This document shows positions 24,610 to 55,681 of a stretch of DNA of 64,000 bases, in pieces (position 1 is the first letter of the stretch; each line of letters starts with the position of its first letter). The translations under genes were made by a program, and so were the position numbers. The notes under the pieces were generated by a model that saw nothing but the letters and a program-made list of their open reading frames with translations, did no database searches and was not told the DNA's origin. Origin of the DNA: Streptomyces ferrugineus (GTDB lineage Bacteria; Actinomycetota; Actinomycetes; Streptomycetales; Streptomycetaceae); NCBI RefSeq assembly GCF_015160855.1, contig NZ_CP063373.1, positions 5,952,001-6,016,000 of the forward strand, given 5' to 3'.

Positions 24610-26388
24610 TCACTGCTTGGCGCCGAAGTTCTGCGTCCACCAGGGGCCGCCCGAGCTCTTGTTGATGCCCACGCCGATGTCCTTGAACGAGCAGTTGAGG
24701 ATGTTGGCGCGATGGCCGGGGCTGTTCATCCAGGACTCCATGACCGCTTCCGGGGTCTGCTGGCCTTGAGCGATGTTCTCGCCGAAGGTGGACCAGCGGT
24801 ATCCCGCGGCGGTGATGCGCTGGCCGGGATCGGCGCCGTCGGGGTTGGTGTGGTCGAAGAAGCCACGGGCGGCCATGTCGTCGGAGTGGCCCTGGGCGGC
24901 CTTGTTCAGCAGGGCGTCCTCCTCGAGCGGGCCGCAGCCGGCGGCCGACCGCTCCTTGTTCACCAGGGCGACCACCTGCGCCACGGCGCCCGTGGGTGCC
25001 GGCTGCTCCTGCGGTGTGCTGGACGCGCTGCGCGTCGGCTCAGGGGTGGGCCGGGGAGCCGGCGCCGCCTTCTTCGTGGGCCGCGGGGACTTGGATGGGG
25101 TCGCCTTCTTCGACGGTGACTTGGACGGCGTCCGGGAGGGGGAGGGCGAGGCGGAGGTCTCGATCGGGGTGGCCTGCGCGAGGTCCGGGACCGGGGCGCC
25201 GGCCGTGCGCGCGGCGGTCGCCTCCTCGGTCCCGTTCCCGGGATCGGTGTCGTAGTGGAACCACAGGCCGCCGCCCGCCACACAGGCCGCGACGACGGCA
25301 CCTCCCACGGCCCTGCGCCGGACGCGTCGGCGCCGACGGGCCTCGCCGCGCGAGAGGGCGCGGCCGCGACCGGCGCGGTGCGCGGCTCTGCCGCCCGATC
25401 CGGCGGACGCCGCGAGCTGGGCCTGCGAACCCGTCGGGGTCCCATCGACGACCGAACCCATCGGGGCCGTCCCATCGACGACCGAACCCGTCGGGGCCGT
25501 CCCATCGACGACCGAACCCACCGGGGCCATCCCGTCGGCGGCCGAACCCACCGGGAGCATCCCGTCGACGACCGAACCCACCGGGAGCATCCCGCCGGAC
25601 GCCGACAGCACCCTCTCCGCCAGCGCCGGTGCCACCGCGACCAGGGCCAGGCCGGCCAGCAGCCCCTCGGCGGGCATCAGCCCGCTCCACACGCCGGAGC
25701 AACGCACACAACCCCGGGCATGCCGGGCTATTCGCTTGCGCCACAGTGCCGAGGGCTGGCCGTCCCAGGACGCCAGCACACCCCGCAGTTCGTCGCACGG
25801 CGGCTGCGCGTCGAGCGCCCGCACCACCACCCGGGCCGCCTCCAACTGCGCCTTCATCCGCTGCACCCGTACCGCGGTGTGCTGCGGCGACAGCTCCAGG
25901 GCCGCGGCGACCTCGGCCCGGGTGAGCTCGCCGGCGCACTCCAGCCACCACAGCGACAGCAGTCCCCGGTCGTCGGGCTCCAGCCAGCGGGTGGCGAGCG
26001 CCGTCTCCTGGCGCTGGCCGGACAACTGGAGCCGCACCATGGTCAGGTCCACGAAGTCGGCGCCGGGATCGGCGATGTCCTGGGCCTCCTCCACGGCGCC
26101 CGGGGCCGTCTGCCGGTCGTGCCAGTGCGCACGGACCTGGTTCATGGCGATCGCCACCAGCCAGGAGCGGAAGCTCTCGGGAGTGCGCAGCCCGCCGAGC
26201 GCGTCGAGGGCGCGCAGCATGGTCTCCTGCACCACGTCGTCCACGTCGACGGAGCCGTTCAGAGCCCTCCCCACGATGTTGTAGACCAGCGGGAGGTACG
26301 CACTGACCAGGGCGTCCTGAGCCTTTGGATCGCCGCTTCGGGCGGCGGTCACCAGTGCCGCGAGCTCCCTCGTGCGCTCTGTACTCAT
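24610..26388 (-). CDS. ECF sigma factor fused to zinc-finger-like motif, membrane segment and extracytoplasmic CAP/SCP domain
   Basis: 592 residues from ATG 26388 (site AGGGAAG). Residues ~10-195 are an ECF sigma factor: region 2 with DVDDVVQETMLRALDAL, region 4 with LSPQHTAVRVQRMKAQLE. At ~225-232 an RHARGCVRC motif (H-x3-C-x2-C) recalls zinc-binding anti-sigma domains. A tandem decapeptide repeat (~266-316), a basic stretch, one transmembrane helix (~360-378, VGGAVVAACVAGGGLWF) and a long Pro/Ser/Lys linker follow. The C-terminal ~120 residues are a CAP/SCP domain (HSDDMAARGFFDHTNPDG, NIAQGQQTPE, SWMNSPGHRANIL) that would lie outside the membrane. This looks like a one-protein surface-to-promoter signalling device. 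No separate anti-sigma gene adjoins. Confidence 0.88.
   Translation of the reverse strand: MSTERTRELAALVTAARSGDPKAQDALVSAYLPLVYNIVGRALNGSVDVDDVVQETMLRALDALGGLRTPESFRSWLVAIAMNQVRAHWHDRQTAPGAVEEAQDIADPGADFVDLTMVRLQLSGQRQETALATRWLEPDDRGLLSLWWLECAGELTRAEVAAALELSPQHTAVRVQRMKAQLEAARVVVRALDAQPPCDELRGVLASWDGQPSALWRKRIARHARGCVRCSGVWSGLMPAEGLLAGLALVAVAPALAERVLSASGGMLPVGSVVDGMLPVGSAADGMAPVGSVVDGTAPTGSVVDGTAPMGSVVDGTPTGSQAQLAASAGSGGRAAHRAGRGRALSRGEARRRRRVRRRAVGGAVVAACVAGGGLWFHYDTDPGNGTEEATAARTAGAPVPDLAQATPIETSASPSPSRTPSKSPSKKATPSKSPRPTKKAAPAPRPTPEPTRSASSTPQEQPAPTGAVAQVVALVNKERSAAGCGPLEEDALLNKAAQGHSDDMAARGFFDHTNPDGADPGQRITAAGYRWSTFGENIAQGQQTPEAVMESWMNSPGHRANILNCSFKDIGVGINKSSGGPWWTQNFGAKQ
25441..25590. repeat. 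Five tandem 30-bp repeats encoding a decapeptide
   Basis: Five full copies of a 30-bp unit (plus-strand consensus begins CCCATCGACGACCGAACCC), with partial copies flanking, inside the sigma-CAP gene. They encode GMLPVGSVVD-like decapeptides (variants GMAPVGSVVD, GTAPTGSVVD, GTAPMGSVVD) between the zinc-finger-like motif and the membrane helix. Copy number may vary between strains. Confidence 0.85.
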
Positions 26389-30659: not shown

Positions 30660-31727
30660 TCAGGCCACCGGGAGCACCGGCCCGTCGGCGCCCAACAGCG
30701 CACGCAGTGCGGGGATCCGACGCCAGGTCAGGCCGAGCGCGCGGGCCGCGAACCGGAGGGTGACGTGCGGCGCGCCCTGTGCCGCTTCGCGTATCGCCTC
30801 CCGCGCGGCCCGCGCGCTTTCGGGCAGGGCTCCCCCGGCGGGCGCCGCTGCCGCCCCGACGCGCTCCCGGTCGAGCTCGTGGATCCCCGTGAGCTCGGCC
30901 GAGAGATCGGCGGCGGCCTCCAAGGTCTGCGGCAGCAGGCCGAGGAGGTGGGCCGCGACCGTGTTGTGGGCGAGGGCCTCGTCCAGGCCGGTGGAGTGGA
31001 CGCGGGCGGACTCGTCGCTGAGCGGGACGAGACGACTCACCGTACGCACCGGGCCGCGTACGCCCTCGATCGCGGCCGCAAACAGGGCGGACGCCTCGGA
31101 GGGGTGCCAGGACAGGGCCGTTCGGATGGCGGCCAGGTCCGGTGTGAGGGGGGTGAGGACGCCACCGCTCAGGCGGTCCAGTACGTCGGTCCGGGGGATC
31201 TCCCCGTCCGTTCCCGGACCGGCGACGTACACGGTGGCGGGCACGCCGGCGAGTCGGCATGCGGCGAGAGCCAGCGCGTCGACCAGCGGACTGCACAGGG
31301 TCTTCTCGTCGCCGTGCGCGAGGATGTCGCCGCCGACGTCGACGATGCGGACGTGGTCGTGACCGGTGTCCGCGAGGCGCCGGATCTGCTCGGCCAGTGC
31401 CGTCAAACCCTGCCACGGGTCGAGCAGAACGAGGCGTGCGGGGAGGTGGGCGGCCAGGTCGGGCAGGGTGGAGCCGGCCGGGGTGATGGCCCGTGTGGTG
31501 GGGGTGATCACGGGTACGCCCGCTCGGTGGGTGAGGCCGGTGAAGTGCTCGGCTCCCAGAGGGCCGGGGGTGGGGTCGACTTCGGGGCGTTCCCAGGCGT
31601 ACGTGGCGATCGTGGTCTCACTCTCGCCGAGGGGTGCGCCGGTGAGGGTGCGGCCCACCGTGGCCGCGGTGATCGCGGTGCCCACGGGGTCCCCGCCACC
31701 GCCCGCGGCGATGAACAGGTCGCTCAC
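30660..31727 (-). CDS. DUF1152 family protein in a putative biosynthetic cluster
   Basis: 355 residues. The GTG start (31727) overlaps the stop of the radical SAM gene (GTGA), so it is co-translated with it. It begins with a Gly-rich, Rossmann-like loop (LFIAAGGGGDPVGTA) and contains VRIVDVGGDILAHGDEKTL and LAACRLAGVPATVYVAGPG, as expected of DUF1152 proteins. Their biochemical role is unknown to me. No signal peptide or membrane segment. Tight coupling suggests it works with the radical SAM enzyme, either as an accessory protein or on its product. Confidence 0.75.
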   Translation of the reverse strand: MSDLFIAAGGGGDPVGTAITAATVGRTLTGAPLGESETTIATYAWERPEVDPTPGPLGAEHFTGLTHRAGVPVITPTTRAITPAGSTLPDLAAHLPARLVLLDPWQGLTALAEQIRRLADTGHDHVRIVDVGGDILAHGDEKTLCSPLVDALALAACRLAGVPATVYVAGPGTDGEIPRTDVLDRLSGGVLTPLTPDLAAIRTALSWHPSEASALFAAAIEGVRGPVRTVSRLVPLSDESARVHSTGLDEALAHNTVAAHLLGLLPQTLEAAADLSAELTGIHELDRERVGAAAAPAGGALPESARAAREAIREAAQGAPHVTLRFAARALGLTWRRIPALRALLGADGPVLPVA

Positions 31728-33163
31728 GCGCTCTCCCGGGCGGTGCCGATCCCGGTGATCCGCACCGGCGTGCCCATGTTCCTGCGGGCGCGGGCGTTGG
31801 CCTCGTGCAGGCCCTCGTAGTACTCGCGGTCGAGGGTTTTGACGTGGTCGGAGTAGAACATCCAGGAAAGGATGTCGCGGTACTTGAAGCCCTTGGGCGT
31901 GAGCTGGACGCGGCGCGGGCCGACGCGGTGGATCAAACCGTTGGCGTGGGCGGCGTCGAGGATCTCCTCCACCTCCTCGCCGATCATGTCCAGGCCGAAG
32001 CGGTCGAGTTCGGACAGATCGAGGTCGAAGGTGTCGAGCACGAGGCGTTTGCGGACGATCTCCTCCGGGGTGAGCGCGAACCCCGTGGTCGGCTGCAGGC
32101 GGTGCGCCTTGGCGCTGCGGATGTAGTCGGCGACCTCGCTCATGGACGGCTTGACGCTGCCGGTCATGTAGTCGAGGACGGAGGTGTAGGAGCGGGCCCC
32201 GACACCGAGGCCGAGCAGGGGGACGCCGTGGAAGGTGAGGACCTTCTGCGCATAGCCGCCGCGACCGGGCTTCTTGTAGCGGACGGAGCCCTCCTGGACG
32301 TAGCCGTGCGCGGTGAACACCTCACGGGCGTAGTCGTAGCGCTCGTACAGCTCGGGCCGCCACATGTACTGGTACGCGCCGGTCTTGGAGAACCACGCGT
32401 CCGGTCGCACCGTGAGGAAGTAGGTGGAGATGGTCGTCGGGGCGAGCCCCGCCAGCTCGTCCACCGAGTGCCGCCAGGTCTCGGGGGTCTGCCCGGCGAA
32501 CCCCATGATCAGATCCGTCGACAGGTCCGGCAGTCCGCGCTCGTGGACGATCTCGACGGCCCTGCGGATGACGTCCTCGCCCGCCTGGCCGCGCCCGGCC
32601 TCGCGGATCTCCTGCGGTACCAGCGACTGGATGCCGATGTTGGCGCGGGTGAGGCCCAGGTCGAGCAGCCGCCCGAAGCCGTCGGGGTCGGCGACGATGG
32701 AGTCCGGAGTGGCCTCCAGGGCCACCTCCTCCACGGTGGAGCGCCAGTTGGGGTAGATCTCGCCCAGGGTGGCGAAGATCTGCTCGAAGTGCCGGGTCGA
32801 GAGCAGCGCGGGGGTGCCGCCGCCGATGTAGACGGTGCGCAGCCGGCGCGCCCGGATGATCTCCGCGTGGTCGCGGAGCTGGGTGCAGAGCGCGTCGGTG
32901 TAGGCGTCGTAGAGGTCCTCGTCCGTGGATATGACGGTGTAGAGGTTGCAGAACCCGCATTTGTAGCGGCAGAACGGGACGTGCAGATACAGGCTGAGTT
33001 CGGGCACCTGGTAGGCGGCCAGGTCCTTCGCCCATACGTCGTGGACGTCCCAGGCGCCCTCGTCGAGCCGCCGGTAGGTGGAGCGGGGCGGATACGAGTA
33101 CTGGTACGGGGGGATGACGCCCTGTCGGATGTACTCGGCGAGCTGGTCGTGCGGGCTGTTCAC
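31724..33163 (-). CDS. HemN-like radical SAM enzyme
   Basis: 479 residues from GTG 33163 with an AAGGAG site 9 bp upstream. The [4Fe-4S] motif C-x3-C-x2-C is at residues 65, 69 and 72 (HVPFCRYKCGFCN). It is followed by YIGGGTPALLS and other coproporphyrinogen-dehydrogenase-type blocks (GIQSLVPQEIREAGRGQ) and a HemN C-terminal domain. Proteins of this build include HemN/HemW and the class C radical SAM methyltransferases and cyclopropanases of antibiotic pathways (NosN, Jaw5, C10P types). The setting, with no heme genes but two ATP-grasp ligases and an exporter, favours a natural product tailoring role such as C-methylation or cyclopropanation. Confidence 0.87.
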   Translation of the reverse strand: MNSPHDQLAEYIRQGVIPPYQYSYPPRSTYRRLDEGAWDVHDVWAKDLAAYQVPELSLYLHVPFCRYKCGFCNLYTVISTDEDLYDAYTDALCTQLRDHAEIIRARRLRTVYIGGGTPALLSTRHFEQIFATLGEIYPNWRSTVEEVALEATPDSIVADPDGFGRLLDLGLTRANIGIQSLVPQEIREAGRGQAGEDVIRRAVEIVHERGLPDLSTDLIMGFAGQTPETWRHSVDELAGLAPTTISTYFLTVRPDAWFSKTGAYQYMWRPELYERYDYAREVFTAHGYVQEGSVRYKKPGRGGYAQKVLTFHGVPLLGLGVGARSYTSVLDYMTGSVKPSMSEVADYIRSAKAHRLQPTTGFALTPEEIVRKRLVLDTFDLDLSELDRFGLDMIGEEVEEILDAAHANGLIHRVGPRRVQLTPKGFKYRDILSWMFYSDHVKTLDREYYEGLHEANARARRNMGTPVRITGIGTARESA

Positions 33164-33410
33164 GATGGATGACTCCTTCGCACCATGCCGTTCGATTGAC
33201 CGTGCCCACCGATCCGAACACGCAACATTTTGTTGAAGCTATCGGTGTTGTGCACCAACTCCCGCACGCCGAGGGGGTGTCGTGGTTGTGGCATCGGACA
33301 ATGGGGCGCCGCTTCTTGTCGCTTCGGCCAACTCGAGTGCGTCTGCGGCGAGTTGTTTTCGGAGATCGGCCCGATGGACGGTGTGCCGCCGGGGCCGGTC
33401 CACTGAGCGC
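33164..33410. promoter_or_regulatory. Divergent control region of the radical SAM/ATP-grasp cluster
   Basis: 247 bp between the two transcription arms, with a patch that is A/T-rich for this genome. It contains a perfect inverted repeat CAACATTTTGTTG (33223-33235). A second, GTTG-TGCAC-CAAC, lies about 10 bp further on. Either could be an operator controlling both arms. No regulator gene lies inside the cluster. I could not fix promoter hexamers. Confidence 0.5.
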
Positions 33411-34664
33411 GTGGACAGCAGCGACGACGAGCCGGGCGCGACCGGCGTACTGGTGATCGAGCCCATGGGCAACGCGGGTCCCTTCCTCGCGGAGGCCGCC
33501 GCCCGTCTGGGCATCCGGCTGTACGCGGCCACCGACGAGCGGGTTCACGCCGGCTATGAGCCATGGCTGACGCGGCGCCTGGACGGGGTCTGTCCGACCG
33601 AACTGGCCGACACCGAGCGCGCGTTGGACGACATGGAGAAGTTCTGCCGTACGCGGCGCATCACGGGTGTCGCGGTCTGCTGGGAGCTGCTGACCCCGCT
33701 GGCGGCCCTGCTCGCCGAACGCCTCGGGCTGCCGGGCAACGACCCTTGGCTCGCCCGGGCCGCCCGCAACAAGATCGCCATGGCGGCGGCGTTCCGCGCG
33801 GCGGGCGTGCCGGCGCCCGCCGAGGCGGTGGTCAGCACCGTCGAGCAGGCCCATCAGGTCGCCGCGTCCGGCCGGTTGGGGTGGCCGCTCGTCGTCAAAC
33901 CCGCCGAGCAGGGCGGCTCCTGGGGCGTGAGCGTGGTGGCGGGCCCGGACGGGCTCGATGCCGCGGTGGCCGCCGCCGGGCGGTTCACCCGCGCCGAGCC
34001 GCACGGTCTGCCGCTGGACTCGCGGGTGCTGCTCCAGCGCTATGTGCCCGGCGAGGAGTTCTCCGCCGACACGGTCGTGCACGACGGTGTGCCGCACCCG
34101 CTGCCCGTGGTCCGCAAGGACACCACGGTGGGCCGCTACCGGGTGGAGACCGGGCACTCCTGCCCCGCCGGGCTCGACGCCCGCACGGTACGGGCGATCC
34201 AGGACACCGCGGCACGCGCCGCGCTCGCCGTCGGGATACGCAACGGCATCGCCCACACCGAGGTGAAGCTCGCCCCGGGTGGCGAGCCGGTCGTCATCGA
34301 GACCGGGGCCCGGCTGCCCGGGGACAACATCTGCGAGCTCGTCGAGGCCGCGACCGGCGTCAGTGAGGCGGCCGCCTACCTGCGAGCCGTGACCGGGCGG
34401 GTGCCGCACACCGAGCCGACCCGGGACGCCGCGGCCGCGCTGCGGTTCGTCCTGCCGGAGCGGGCGGGAGTGTTGGAGTACGTCGTCATCCCCGAGGCGC
34501 CCGGCACGCACAGCCGGATCCACATCCGTCCCGGCGAGCGGGTGCCCGAACCCGCCGACAGTTCCGGCCGGGTCGGGCATGTCCTGGCGCGCGCCGCGTC
34601 CGTCGACGAGGCCCGCCGCCTCGCCGCCCAGGTCGTCGCCGACACCCGAGTGAAAGTGAGCTGA
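33411..34664 (+). CDS. ATP-grasp carboxylate-amine ligase (first)
   Basis: 417 residues from GTG 33411 (VDSSDDEPGATGVLVIEPMG). The start is uncertain because no strong ribosome site precedes it; an upstream in-frame ATG at 33282 would add a Ser/Ala/Arg-rich stretch that looks non-coding. ATP-grasp features are RNKIAMAAAFRAAGVPAPAE, WPLVVKPAEQGGSWGVSVV, LLQRYVPGEEFSADTVV and the Mg-binding VVIETGARLPGD. It resembles L-amino acid ligases and related enzymes that form amide bonds through an acyl phosphate. A second ATP-grasp gene begins 4 bp later, so two successive amide couplings are a reasonable reading. Confidence 0.85.
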   Translation: MDSSDDEPGATGVLVIEPMGNAGPFLAEAAARLGIRLYAATDERVHAGYEPWLTRRLDGVCPTELADTERALDDMEKFCRTRRITGVAVCWELLTPLAALLAERLGLPGNDPWLARAARNKIAMAAAFRAAGVPAPAEAVVSTVEQAHQVAASGRLGWPLVVKPAEQGGSWGVSVVAGPDGLDAAVAAAGRFTRAEPHGLPLDSRVLLQRYVPGEEFSADTVVHDGVPHPLPVVRKDTTVGRYRVETGHSCPAGLDARTVRAIQDTAARAALAVGIRNGIAHTEVKLAPGGEPVVIETGARLPGDNICELVEAATGVSEAAAYLRAVTGRVPHTEPTRDAAAALRFVLPERAGVLEYVVIPEAPGTHSRIHIRPGERVPEPADSSGRVGHVLARAASVDEARRLAAQVVADTRVKVS

Positions 34665-34667
34665 TCC

Positions 34668-35927
34668 GTGCCCAGCCCCGTACGGAGGATCGCGTTCCTG
34701 CGGTCCGTGGAGATCCGACGCGCCGACCCCTACATCCAGCGATGCGTCCGCGAGCTGTCCCGGCTCGGCGTCGAGAGCCGCCTGTTCCACACGCACGGCA
34801 CGGCGGACGACGGGGACTTCCCCGGCGCCCGGCGCCGCCTCGACGCCGCCGTCACCCCCGCCGAACTCGCCCAGGAGGTCGCCGACTGGGGCGCGGACGC
34901 CGCCGTCTCCATCTCCCTGCCGTGCGAGAACGCCCTGCGGGACGCCACCGTCAAGGAGTTCCTCGAAGCCCGGGGCATCCCCACGGTGATGACCCCGCTG
35001 GCATCGACCTTGGCCCTGACCGACAAGTGGGAGACCAAGCGGCTTCTGGCTCGCGCCGGCCTCGACACCCCGCGCGGCTTCAAGGCCGACTCCGATCTGC
35101 TGGCCGGGCGCGGCGTGGCGGTTCCCGCGTACGCGGACGCCCTGCGCGCATCGGCCGCCGGCATCGGCTATCCGCTCCTGTCCAAGCCGCTGTGGGACTC
35201 CACCAGCATGGGGATCAGGGCCCTGCCCGACGCGGCGGCCCTGGACGCCTATCTCGCCGACCCGCCCGAGGTGTCGGCGGTGATCGAGGAATGCGTCACC
35301 GGCGCGCTGTGCTCGGTGGACATCGTGGGCGAGCCCGGGGCGTACCAGGTGCTGCCGGTGTGCTGGACCGGGACGGCGGGCACCGAGCCCGTGTTCACCT
35401 TCGCCGATCTGCGCTGGTGCGGTCCCCGGCCCCGGGCCGACGCCGACTTCGCGCCGGTCGCGGCCGGGCTGACCGCGTTGTGCGAGGATCTCGAGGTCCG
35501 CGGATCCGTCAACGTCGACATGATCTACACCGGTTCGCGGTACGTGATCCTGGAGATCAACCCGCGTATCGGCGGCGCCACGACCCTGTCCTGCGCCGCC
35601 TCCGGCACCAACACCTTCACCGCGCTCGCCGACATGGCGCGCGGCGTGTACGCCCCGGCCCCTGTGCGCCGTACGGGATGGGCCGTCGAGTTCCTGTCCC
35701 CCGAGCGTCTGCCGGAGCCGGTGCGCTCGGAGCTGACGGCCCGGCTGAATCTCGTCACCGCCCATGAGTTGGTCATCGACGACACCAGTCACGGCGAGAT
35801 CGTCGTGTTCACGCTCGCCGAGGGCGACGAGCGGCAGACCGTCAAGCAGTTGGAGGAGCTGCACCGGACCACGGGCTGGCCACGCCAGGAGATCCTGGAC
35901 AAGACCCGGGCCCTGCTGACCCCATGA
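34668..35927 (+). CDS. ATP-grasp ligase (second)
   Basis: 419 residues from GTG 34668, 4 bp after the previous stop. Seen are ALTDKWETKRLLARAGLDTP, IGYPLLSKPLWDSTSMGI, VIEECVTGALCSVDIVG and NVDMIYTGSRYVILEINPRI. The last places the Mg-binding Glu and Asn in the canonical EINPR motif, so the fold should be active. It differs strongly from the first ATP-grasp protein, so the two should have different substrates rather than be recent duplicates. Stop-start overlap with the following exporter gene indicates one operon. Confidence 0.85.
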   Translation: MPSPVRRIAFLRSVEIRRADPYIQRCVRELSRLGVESRLFHTHGTADDGDFPGARRRLDAAVTPAELAQEVADWGADAAVSISLPCENALRDATVKEFLEARGIPTVMTPLASTLALTDKWETKRLLARAGLDTPRGFKADSDLLAGRGVAVPAYADALRASAAGIGYPLLSKPLWDSTSMGIRALPDAAALDAYLADPPEVSAVIEECVTGALCSVDIVGEPGAYQVLPVCWTGTAGTEPVFTFADLRWCGPRPRADADFAPVAAGLTALCEDLEVRGSVNVDMIYTGSRYVILEINPRIGGATTLSCAASGTNTFTALADMARGVYAPAPVRRTGWAVEFLSPERLPEPVRSELTARLNLVTAHELVIDDTSHGEIVVFTLAEGDERQTVKQLEELHRTTGWPRQEILDKTRALLTP

Positions 35928-37195
35928 CGCGGACCGCCCCGACCCGTTCTCCGAGACTGCGCCGTGCGCTGGGGCTCCCGGCCACCCGCGGCCATGGCCG
36001 GTTCGTCACCGGCAACCTCGTCGACTCCCTCGGCAACGGCATGCTCCTGCCGCTCGGCCTGCTGTACTTCACCACGCTGCGCGATCTGCCGCTCGCCGCG
36101 GTCGGAGCGGCGGTCACCGTGGGCCAGTTGGCCGCCCTGCCCGTCGTCTTCGCCGCGGGCCGCTTCATGGACCGGCACGGGCCGAGACGTCTGACCGTCG
36201 TCGCCAACGTCGTCAGCGCCGCCGGCTTCCTCTCCTTCCTCCTCGCCGACCGGCCCTGGCAGATCGCCGGCGCCTATCTGCTGGTGCAGTCCGGCGTCAA
36301 CGCGTACTACACGGCGCAGCGCACGCTGATCCTGCACGCCGCGCCCGCCACGGAGACGCGCAGTTGGTTCGCCTTCACCGGCAGCCTGCGCAACATCGGC
36401 ATCGGTGCCGGGGCACTGCTGGCGGCCGGCGCGCTCGCCCTGTTCGGCACGACGGCCCTGACGTGGCTCGTCGTCGCGGCGGCCCCGCTGTATCTGCTGG
36501 CGGCACTCTGCTTCGCACGCGTGCGGACGACGCCCCCGCCCGAGACGGCCGGCGAGAAACCGCCGGGCGAGGACCGCACGGCGCGCAAGGGGCCGGGCAG
36601 CGCGGACATGCGTCGCTACCTGCTCCTCGTCGGCTGCAACGTCCCCTTCGTACTGTCCCAGGCCATGCTGTCGGTGCTCATCGCCGTGTACGCCACCCAA
36701 ACGCTCGGGCTGCCCGCCTGGTCCGCGAGCATCCTGCTGGTGGTGAACACCGCGATGGTCTCCACGCTCACCAGTCCGCTGACGGCGCACGTCGCCCCGA
36801 AGCAGGCCCGGCACACCCTGGCCGTGGGCCATGCCCTGCTGGTGTGCGCCATGCTGGCGTTCGCGGCCCCCGCGGTGCCTGAGGCGGACGTCCCCGCATG
36901 GCCCGCCCTGGCCCTCGCGATCGTCCTGTTCAGCCTGGCCGAGATCCTCTACTCGCCGGCCGTCAGCGAGCTGTCCGTCACGCTCACCCCGAACGCGGCG
37001 CGCGGCAGCAGGCAGAGCCTGTACCAACTCTCCTGGGCTTCGGGCAACATCGCCGCCCCCGCCCTGTTCACGGGCCTCCTCGACGCCCACGCCCTACTGC
37101 CCTGGGCCGTACAGGGCACGGCGTGCCTCATGGCCCTCGCCGCGATCCCGGCCCTGAAGTCCCCTGCCCCGCAGGGCGGAAGGAGGCACGGATGA
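35924..37195 (+). CDS. MFS transporter, probable product exporter
   Basis: 423 residues, ATG 35924 overlapping the ATP-grasp stop. About 12 hydrophobic segments. The loop after the second helix reads FAAGRFMDRHGPRRLTVVAN, a usual MFS motif A. The central cytoplasmic loop is Pro/Glu-rich (PPPETAGEKPPGEDRT). The sequence resembles MFS efflux proteins rather than nutrient importers. Its place between a ligase and a transferase gene, overlapping both, points to export of the cluster's product or self-resistance. Confidence 0.87.
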   Translation: MTRTAPTRSPRLRRALGLPATRGHGRFVTGNLVDSLGNGMLLPLGLLYFTTLRDLPLAAVGAAVTVGQLAALPVVFAAGRFMDRHGPRRLTVVANVVSAAGFLSFLLADRPWQIAGAYLLVQSGVNAYYTAQRTLILHAAPATETRSWFAFTGSLRNIGIGAGALLAAGALALFGTTALTWLVVAAAPLYLLAALCFARVRTTPPPETAGEKPPGEDRTARKGPGSADMRRYLLLVGCNVPFVLSQAMLSVLIAVYATQTLGLPAWSASILLVVNTAMVSTLTSPLTAHVAPKQARHTLAVGHALLVCAMLAFAAPAVPEADVPAWPALALAIVLFSLAEILYSPAVSELSVTLTPNAARGSRQSLYQLSWASGNIAAPALFTGLLDAHALLPWAVQGTACLMALAAIPALKSPAPQGGRRHG

Positions 37196-38226
37196 AGGCG
37201 GAGATCGTGCGCAGCGTGCGCGCGGTTCCGGTGGCGGACTGGGACCGGCTGGCGCGGCACGCCAGTGTGTACCTCTCGCACCGCTGGCTCGCCGGCGAGG
37301 AGAGCGACCCGACGGCGACGGCGTCGTACGCGCTGGTCCGGGACGAAGCCGACACCCTGGTGGCGGCCGCGCCCCTGTACCTGGTGCACGACGAACCCAA
37401 CGCCTACTACCGGCCCACGCACCTCGCGCCCGCGACGGCGAGGCCGCGGGTGCTCGCGGGCGCCCGGCGCGGCTACCACAACACGCCCCTGACCGACCCG
37501 CGCCTCCCCGACGACCTCGCCGCCCAGTGCCTGACCCTGCTCCGCGAGGCGGCACGCGACCACGCCGAGCGGCACGGGACGACGCACTGGTGGCCGTATC
37601 TGACCGAGTCCGCCACGCACATGCTCGCGCCGCTGTACGCCACGCCCCCGCATCGCATGGAGGACGACGCGACGATTCCGCTGCCCGGCGCCGGTTTCGA
37701 CGACTATCTCGCCTCGCTGCCGTCCAAACGACGCGTGGCGATACGTCATGAGCGCGCCGCCTTCGCGGCGGCAGGGCTCGACATACGGCACCAACCCCTC
37801 ATCGACTGCTACGAGGACGCGGGCCGGCTCCTCGCGGCGTTGCAGAGATCCCACGGTCACGCCGACGACGCGGCGGCGATGACGCACGTCCTCGAACGCC
37901 AGGCCGTCGCCATGGGTGAGCAGGCCCGAGTGGTCGCCGCCCACGCGGGTCCACGCATGACCGGCTTCTGCCTCTACTACCACCAGGGCGGGACCACTTG
38001 GCTGCGCGCCGTCGGCATCGACCCCGAACACCCCGCCCCGTTCGCGTACTTCGCCCTCACCTACTACGCGCCGATCGAGGACGCGTACCGCCGGGGCAGC
38101 ACCGCGCTGCACGCGGGGATGAAGGCCGTCGAGGCCAAGCGGCGGCGCGGGGCGCGGATCAGTGGGCTTTACGCGCTGCATGACACGGAGACGGATACGC
38201 AGGCCGCCGCCAGCACACTCCATTGA
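37192..38226 (+). CDS. Fem/GNAT-like (PF04339-type) acyl- or aminoacyltransferase
   Basis: 344 residues from ATG 37192 (site GGAAGGAGG), overlapping the exporter stop. The protein resembles the peptidoglycan biosynthesis/GNAT-like group: an early YLSHRWLAGEE segment, central YLASLPSKRRVAIRHERAAF, then GFCLYYHQGGTTWLRAVG and a C-terminal GMKAVEAKRRRG. Such proteins relate to FemABX enzymes, some of which use aminoacyl-tRNA to extend peptide antibiotics. Here it may add an amino acid or acyl group to the ATP-grasp product. It is the last gene of the plus-strand arm. Confidence 0.78.
   Translation: MKAEIVRSVRAVPVADWDRLARHASVYLSHRWLAGEESDPTATASYALVRDEADTLVAAAPLYLVHDEPNAYYRPTHLAPATARPRVLAGARRGYHNTPLTDPRLPDDLAAQCLTLLREAARDHAERHGTTHWWPYLTESATHMLAPLYATPPHRMEDDATIPLPGAGFDDYLASLPSKRRVAIRHERAAFAAAGLDIRHQPLIDCYEDAGRLLAALQRSHGHADDAAAMTHVLERQAVAMGEQARVVAAHAGPRMTGFCLYYHQGGTTWLRAVGIDPEHPAPFAYFALTYYAPIEDAYRRGSTALHAGMKAVEAKRRRGARISGLYALHDTETDTQAAASTLH

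Positions 38227-47713: not shown

Positions 47714-55681
<7,968 letters not shown>

Follow-up and report, generated by a model that had tools for sequence, protein, structure and literature searches.

A relocating six-gene block of Streptomyces ferrugineus and its probable role in making a small exported peptide-like metabolite

What might two ATP-grasp ligases, a HemN-like radical S-adenosylmethionine (SAM) enzyme, a DUF1152 protein, a Fem-like transferase and an exporter make together? The question is raised by a locus in the 9.96-Mb, single-contig genome of Streptomyces ferrugineus, which we analyzed in a window of 64,000 nucleotides (NZ_CP063373.1, positions 5,952,001 to 6,016,000, forward strand). 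Six intact open reading frames (ORFs) fill positions 30660-38226 of this window in two divergent arms (Table 1). We label their products D (DUF1152), H (HemN-like radical SAM), A and B (ATP-grasp), M (major facilitator superfamily, MFS) and F (Fem-like); D and H are read leftwards, and A, B, M and F rightwards. Neighboring genes overlap by 4 bp at D/H, B/M and M/F, 3 bp separate A from B, and H and A, with 247 bp between them, have the sole larger spacer in the block. The six ORFs, their coordinates and their tight packing are as given in the original prediction, which was made from the sequence alone, except that the start of A has been moved: the mechanical ORF begins at 33282, but the likely start is the GTG at 33411, in agreement with relatives.

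Table 1. Coordinates of the six genes, their intergenic region and related features. Positions are those of the window, or of the named locus for L074.
Feature	Position	Strand	Basis
D: DUF1152 protein, 355 aa	30660-31727	-	Pfam
H: HemN-like radical SAM enzyme, 479 aa, C65/C69/C72	31724-33163	-	Pfam, NCBIfam, HemN/NocN alignments
Divergent intergenic region with palindrome GCAACATTTTGTTGA, candidate operator/promoter	33164-33410	.	13 aligned sequences
A: ATP-grasp ligase, L-amino-acid-ligase type, 417 aa	33411-34664	+	PF13535, PF18130, PF18603
B: second ATP-grasp protein, 419 aa, distant from characterized ones	34668-35927	+	PF02655
M: MFS transporter, 423 aa, probable exporter	35924-37195	+	PF07690
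F: Fem-like tandem-GNAT protein, 344 aa, probable aminoacyl-tRNA-dependent transferase	37192-38226	+	Predicted structure
Sister cluster L074	4952-12647		Pfam names for ThyX, LOG, 2OG oxygenase, permease
Loci with conserved blocks in the H-A gap: L048, L050, L051, L053-L055, L057, L064, L077			

We consider it probable that the six genes form a complete, self-contained, relocating unit for a small exported peptide-like metabolite. A and B would use ATP to join free amino acids through two amide bonds, and F would add a further aminoacyl group, taken from an aminoacyl-tRNA. H, together with D, would turn an ordinary building block into a reactive or protecting "warhead" by radical chemistry using two SAM molecules, and M would export the product, which is probably an antibiotic or antimetabolite. 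What we observe is the gene set, how it is linked and distributed, the intact motifs, the fold class of F and the lack of a coding signal in two shared ORFs of the H-A gap; each reaction step, the order of the steps, the product and its role are inferred from these observations.

It is all six genes together that form the unit, and its place differs between genomes, as can be seen from the share of complete loci, the few flanking genes held in common and the correlated protein distances. Scanning GTDB species genomes with an alignment of B gave 44 loci, from which one spurious match was dropped. Among the 43 examined, all six genes occur together in 26, with D and H on the same strand in each, so that the genes are kept together in related genomes, as the original prediction required. 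The block measures 7.4-7.8 kb in 22 of these complete loci and 9.3-10.7 kb in the four with extra genes. When the nearest three called genes on each side of the complete loci were compared (E 1e-10), any flank homologue was common to 13 of the 325 pairs of loci, and at least three were common to 3 pairs. Across the 26 complete loci and the window, the pairwise distances of the six proteins are correlated in all 15 protein pairs (r 0.79-0.96; 0/999 permutations for each).

The remaining 17 loci comprise eight sister clusters (described below), three blocks cut by contig ends (L052, L064 and L069), one lacking D (L079), two with A and B only (L047 and L060, the latter cut on its left) and three with B only (L056, L062 and L081). 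Full-length remnants of B or of A and B (L056:5382-6641, L062:10001-11248, L081:10001-11254 and L047:8711-11248) hint at independent use or recent loss. The B-only locus of WAC 04229 (L056) has flanks like those of the full block in S. parvulus (L050) in size, order and strand, and by this matching the pair looks like loss of the rest of the block at one site. Homologues of a protein encoded elsewhere in the window (24610-26352, minus strand), a fusion of a sigma-70 region 2 with a CAP domain, flank four close relatives of the block (L023, L024, L039 and L141).

Co-occurrence was also followed in 246 genomes of the same genus, some of which also contributed to the 43 loci, counting B at E <= 1e-20 and H at E <= 1e-60. 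B is present in 17 and H in 14 (about 1 in 18), and all 14 genomes with H are among the 17 with B (hypergeometric 2.9e-20, a value that assumes independent genomes and ignores relatedness). The three genomes with B and without H have a sister cluster (G125), a broken B (G116) or a B on a 10-kb contig (G007), whose gene calls include none of the other five genes. Within the class, 5 of 394 genomes have H at E <= 1e-100, each of them in the same genus. This patchy spread argues against primary metabolism, which the original prediction had named as an alternative.

That the pathway is a variant of peptide biosynthesis independent of non-ribosomal peptide synthetases (NRPSs) is well supported, and this part of the original prediction stands: two intact ATP-grasp proteins, the Fem-like fold of F and an exporter are found together, and Pfam detected no NRPS adenylation, condensation or carrier domain among the six proteins. 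A has ATP-grasp_4 (PF13535, 58.6 bits, cut-off 27) and LAL_C2 (PF18603, 42.1 bits, cut-off 29.4) domains, the combination that marks L-amino-acid-ligase-type ATP-grasp enzymes, and also exceeds the cut-off for ATPgrasp_N (PF18130). The same ATP-grasp_4 and LAL_C2 domains occur in the ligases of bacilysin-type pathways, and the best solved relatives of A are the L-amino acid ligase BL00235 (3vot) and BacD. Judged from its sequence, A is of the L-amino-acid-ligase type but is not BacD itself, since it scores 60.5 bits against the NCBIfam BacD alanine-anticapsin equivalog, far under the cut-off of 850. Bacilysin loci likewise combine a ligase with an MFS exporter; the block described here differs in its second ligase and in adding a Fem-like protein and a radical SAM enzyme. 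B (ATP-grasp_3, PF02655) is a more remote ATP-grasp protein, with profile matches that include D-Ala-D-Ala ligase and carbamoyl-phosphate synthase (E ~1e-12 to 1e-10). The ATP-grasp motifs noted from the start are intact in both proteins (HTEVKL at 282 and VIETGARLPGD at 295 in A; NVDMIY at 282 and ILEINPRIGG at 294 in B) and presumably contain the acidic residues that bind Mg, a role we assume from the family.

The initial MFS and Fem-related assignments also held: M matches MFS_1 (PF07690, 105 bits) and is a probable exporter, and F matches FemAB_like (PF04339). The predicted structure of F has the tandem-GNAT fold of FemX, and Sbb17, Sba18, FemX and MprF match it above named acetyl-CoA tandem GNATs, which makes F a probable aminoacyl-tRNA-dependent transferase. 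Sbb17 and Sba18, aminoacyl-tRNA-dependent peptide synthases solved with streptothrisamine, are 13-14% identical to F; unlike them, F is here encoded with a HemN-like enzyme and a pair of ATP-grasp ligases.

H is a radical SAM protein (Pfam Radical_SAM, 73 bits) with the cluster motif recognized in the original prediction, C65-x3-C69-x2-C72, which is the CX3CX2C of class C enzymes; CX3CX2CNLYT is present in 30 of 30 called relatives scoring >150 bits. H matched 16 NCBIfam models and scored below the curated cut-off of each, including the best, the HemN-like STM4012 family (NF006067, 262 bits over residues 20-448, cut-off 380), coproporphyrinogen III oxidase HemN (TIGR00538, 115 bits, cut-off 325) and ChuW/HutW (TIGR04107, 131 bits, cut-off 400). 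H aligns with HemN residues 13-429 and with NocN across the radical SAM domain. PMC12871812 gives Tyr34, Tyr96, Arg153, Asp196 and Ser225 as the second-SAM residues of NocN, and the aligned residues of H (Y59, Y112, R173, D217 and S246) are identical to these, so that H would share both the cluster motif and the two-SAM residues of the class C methylases and cyclopropanases (NocN/NosN, C10P). HemN has His at the position of H Tyr112. The profile alignment of H stops at NocN residue 268, short of the catalytic Tyr276, which could not be aligned. The same paper calls residues 4-35 of HemN a trip-wire and describes the segment as absent from NocN. The N-terminal segment of H matches that of HemN, with P19, Y24, P25, R27 and Y30 (numbering +1) invariant in 77 aligned members, namely the H of the window and 76 of the 120 relatives listed. 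A protein of locus L142, which we take to be of the STM4012 type, has a HemN-like N-terminal segment too when inspected by eye, and thus the segment is not specific to decarboxylases.

The NocN-type residues, the HemN-type N-terminus and the NCBIfam scores below cut-off together suggest that H belongs to a separate HemN-like branch, likely with two-SAM chemistry. Tentatively, we rank one-carbon transfer to an sp2 carbon first among its possible reactions, with HemN-like oxidative decarboxylation next, as a less likely one. The C-methyl or cyclopropane group of the original prediction is possible but not established: H scores under the curated cut-offs, it has the N-terminal segment that NocN is reported to lack, and other two-SAM chemistry is feasible. 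As a further difference from the class C systems, the block contains no partner methyltransferase of the C10Q kind.

Relatives of H extend to other phyla and, outside Streptomyces, are found in Streptosporangium, Myxococcaceae, Chloroflexi and Desulfovibrio. In Streptomyces cylindrosporus, the gene for a second H-like protein (47% identical) follows genes for deoxynucleotide kinase and adenylosuccinate synthetase, with which it seems to share an operon; the H branch thus reaches beyond this block. The three genes lie in a row at L138:7118-13101. Their island also includes an HD 5'-deoxynucleotidase-like gene and a protein with a phosphorylase domain that PADLOC effector models match, and it could be a nucleotide-modifying or defense system. 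The S. ferrugineus genome has one further match to H at E <= 0.001 (29% identity), presumably the housekeeping HemW.

D is a clear DUF1152 member (PF06626, 211 bits, cut-off 27) and is a near-constant, non-obligate partner of H, next to which it probably acts as a small-molecule enzyme. D was also compared with the LmbE/PIG-L-type deacetylases, which carry a zinc-binding HPDD/E-like motif following their first strand and to which it may or may not belong. A second DUF1152 gene of the same genome (G000:C1:457463-458311, L104) lies in an apparent integrative element, in surroundings that resemble those in the sampled genomes G106 and G094.

We examined the gap between H and A for control elements and for a precursor gene. 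The palindrome GCAACATTTTGTTGA, at 33222-33236, is kept in closer relatives only and lost in others, and has one perfect match and five more with 2 mismatches in its own genome. Another subclade has strongly conserved non-coding blocks in the gap (CACCAAAT, TACTG, CTCCAA and TTTCGT; loci in Table 1). Two small ORFs are shared within a subclade, one of 32-49 aa and a minus-strand one of 38 aa, in at most 8 of 25 gaps. Neither has a precursor-peptide coding signal, in a search that covered the gap and not precursors outside the block: differences are flat over the three codon positions (313/432/342 and 395/433/451, compared with 2027/2017/4908 for A), and copies contain in-frame stops. For the subclade with the conserved blocks, a hidden peptide gene on either strand of the gap was rejected on codon-position counts.

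Gene content varies around the ligases, which points to a core of ligases whose warhead and tailoring genes can be swapped. The eight sister loci (L065, L068, L070, L071, L072, L074, L076 and L078) lack D, H and F and keep relatives of A and B, with M in seven (L072 has no M match). Homologues of the Thy1 (ThyX), LOG-type (PF03641) and 2-oxoglutarate (2OG)-Fe(II) oxygenase proteins of L074 are found in all eight sister loci and in none of the 35 others (E <= 1e-20); its uracil/xanthine permease is matched in five sister loci (L065, L068, L072, L074 and L078) and in none of the others. The sister clusters perhaps couple a modified pyrimidine base to amino acids. Among loci with extra genes, L075 adds a 2OG-Fe_Oxy_2 enzyme and a second MFS protein to the six genes, and L073 is laid out alike; L067 adds a second MFS protein, and L066 is laid out like L067. 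The 2OG-Fe_Oxy_2 family includes free-amino-acid hydroxylases, in keeping with a peptide pathway.

Other products and functions can be imagined for the same genes. The sister loci, eight of 43 with A and B relatives, together with the S. cylindrosporus operon, bring to mind a product containing a nucleobase or nucleoside, in which H (and D) would supply a modified base for A and B to couple to amino acids. Since the block in the window has no nucleotide enzyme, S. cylindrosporus is a single neighborhood, and D resembles nucleoside phosphorylases in Foldseek at E ~0.1, we regard this as rather unlikely. Also unlikely, and slightly more so, is that H carries out the chemistry of HemN on an amino acid, converting a glutamyl propionate to a vinyl group with loss of CO2. 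The peptide that A, B and F assemble would then contain vinylglycine, a known type of inactivator of pyridoxal phosphate enzymes. This would require no extra precursor gene, and it fits the alignment of H with HemN and the invariant N-terminal residues in the segment that NocN is reported to lack. The 115-bit HemN score, the similar segment in the presumed STM4012-type protein and Tyr112, which H shares with NocN and where HemN has His, lean the other way, the last toward class C methylases.

A function in the cell envelope or in stress, with F acting on peptidoglycan precursors, A and B on wall residues and H as a heme enzyme, would agree with the placing of PF04339 and FemX in peptidoglycan-type families and with the D-Ala-D-Ala ligase matches of B. 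It is very unlikely given that just 14 of 246 genus genomes have H, that the genome has a presumed HemW of its own and that flank genes around the block differ. Lowest of all we place a ribosomally synthesized and post-translationally modified peptide (RiPP), either a graspetide or a tRNA-extended scaffold peptide, whose precursor gene would have escaped annotation. RiPP pathways too can contain tRNA-dependent, radical SAM and ATP-grasp enzymes, and a subclade does share small gap ORFs, but the flat codon-position differences and in-frame stops of those ORFs, in a search confined to the gap, the spacing of 3 bp or less elsewhere in the block of the window and the free-amino-acid-ligase type of A make this highly improbable.

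Several observations weigh against the self-contained peptide pathway that we prefer. In 5 of 43 loci the rest of the block is missing and B is left, either alone or with A; in one of these, L047, A and B are 86-89% identical to those in the window. Because of this persistence, A and B may have another use. The block contains no regulator, resistance or precursor-supply gene. For D, the fold match is marginal, and L079 holds the other five genes without it. The lone PDB sequence match of F at E <= 0.001 is weak (a chain named carboxymethylenebutenolidase, E 2.5e-4, residues 175-312), and the use of tRNA by F, as modeled, goes beyond what its fold proves.

Elsewhere in the window, positions 47714-55681 (minus strand) encode a type I polyketide synthase of 2655 aa with an AMP-binding N-terminus, one ketosynthase and a C-terminal thioesterase. 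The Rfam family ASpks matches the antisense strand of this gene at 52757-52825.

The original prediction matched this gene set to no described pathway, and our literature searches likewise returned no paper recognizable as describing the six genes. The block unites ATP-grasp, Fem-like and radical SAM enzymes with DUF1152, and there is a modest chance that the reaction of H is new. A more far-reaching view, which we consider quite unlikely, is that H founds a HemN-like branch with a DUF1152 partner, in which a propionate-to-vinyl (or equally new two-SAM) reaction has moved from porphyrins to amino acids, for example from glutamyl to vinylglycyl. Six genes would then suffice for a Trojan-horse peptide, with housekeeping amino acids, ATP, SAM and aminoacyl-tRNA as the inputs. 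Since the block is self-contained and <8 kb, it fits on a single construct for transfer and testing. If it were solved, a DUF1152 protein would gain a role and a HemN-like branch a substrate, and a new antibiotic scaffold might follow. Genome mining would also gain a practical rule if, as the sister clusters suggest, warhead genes are exchanged around a shared ligase core.

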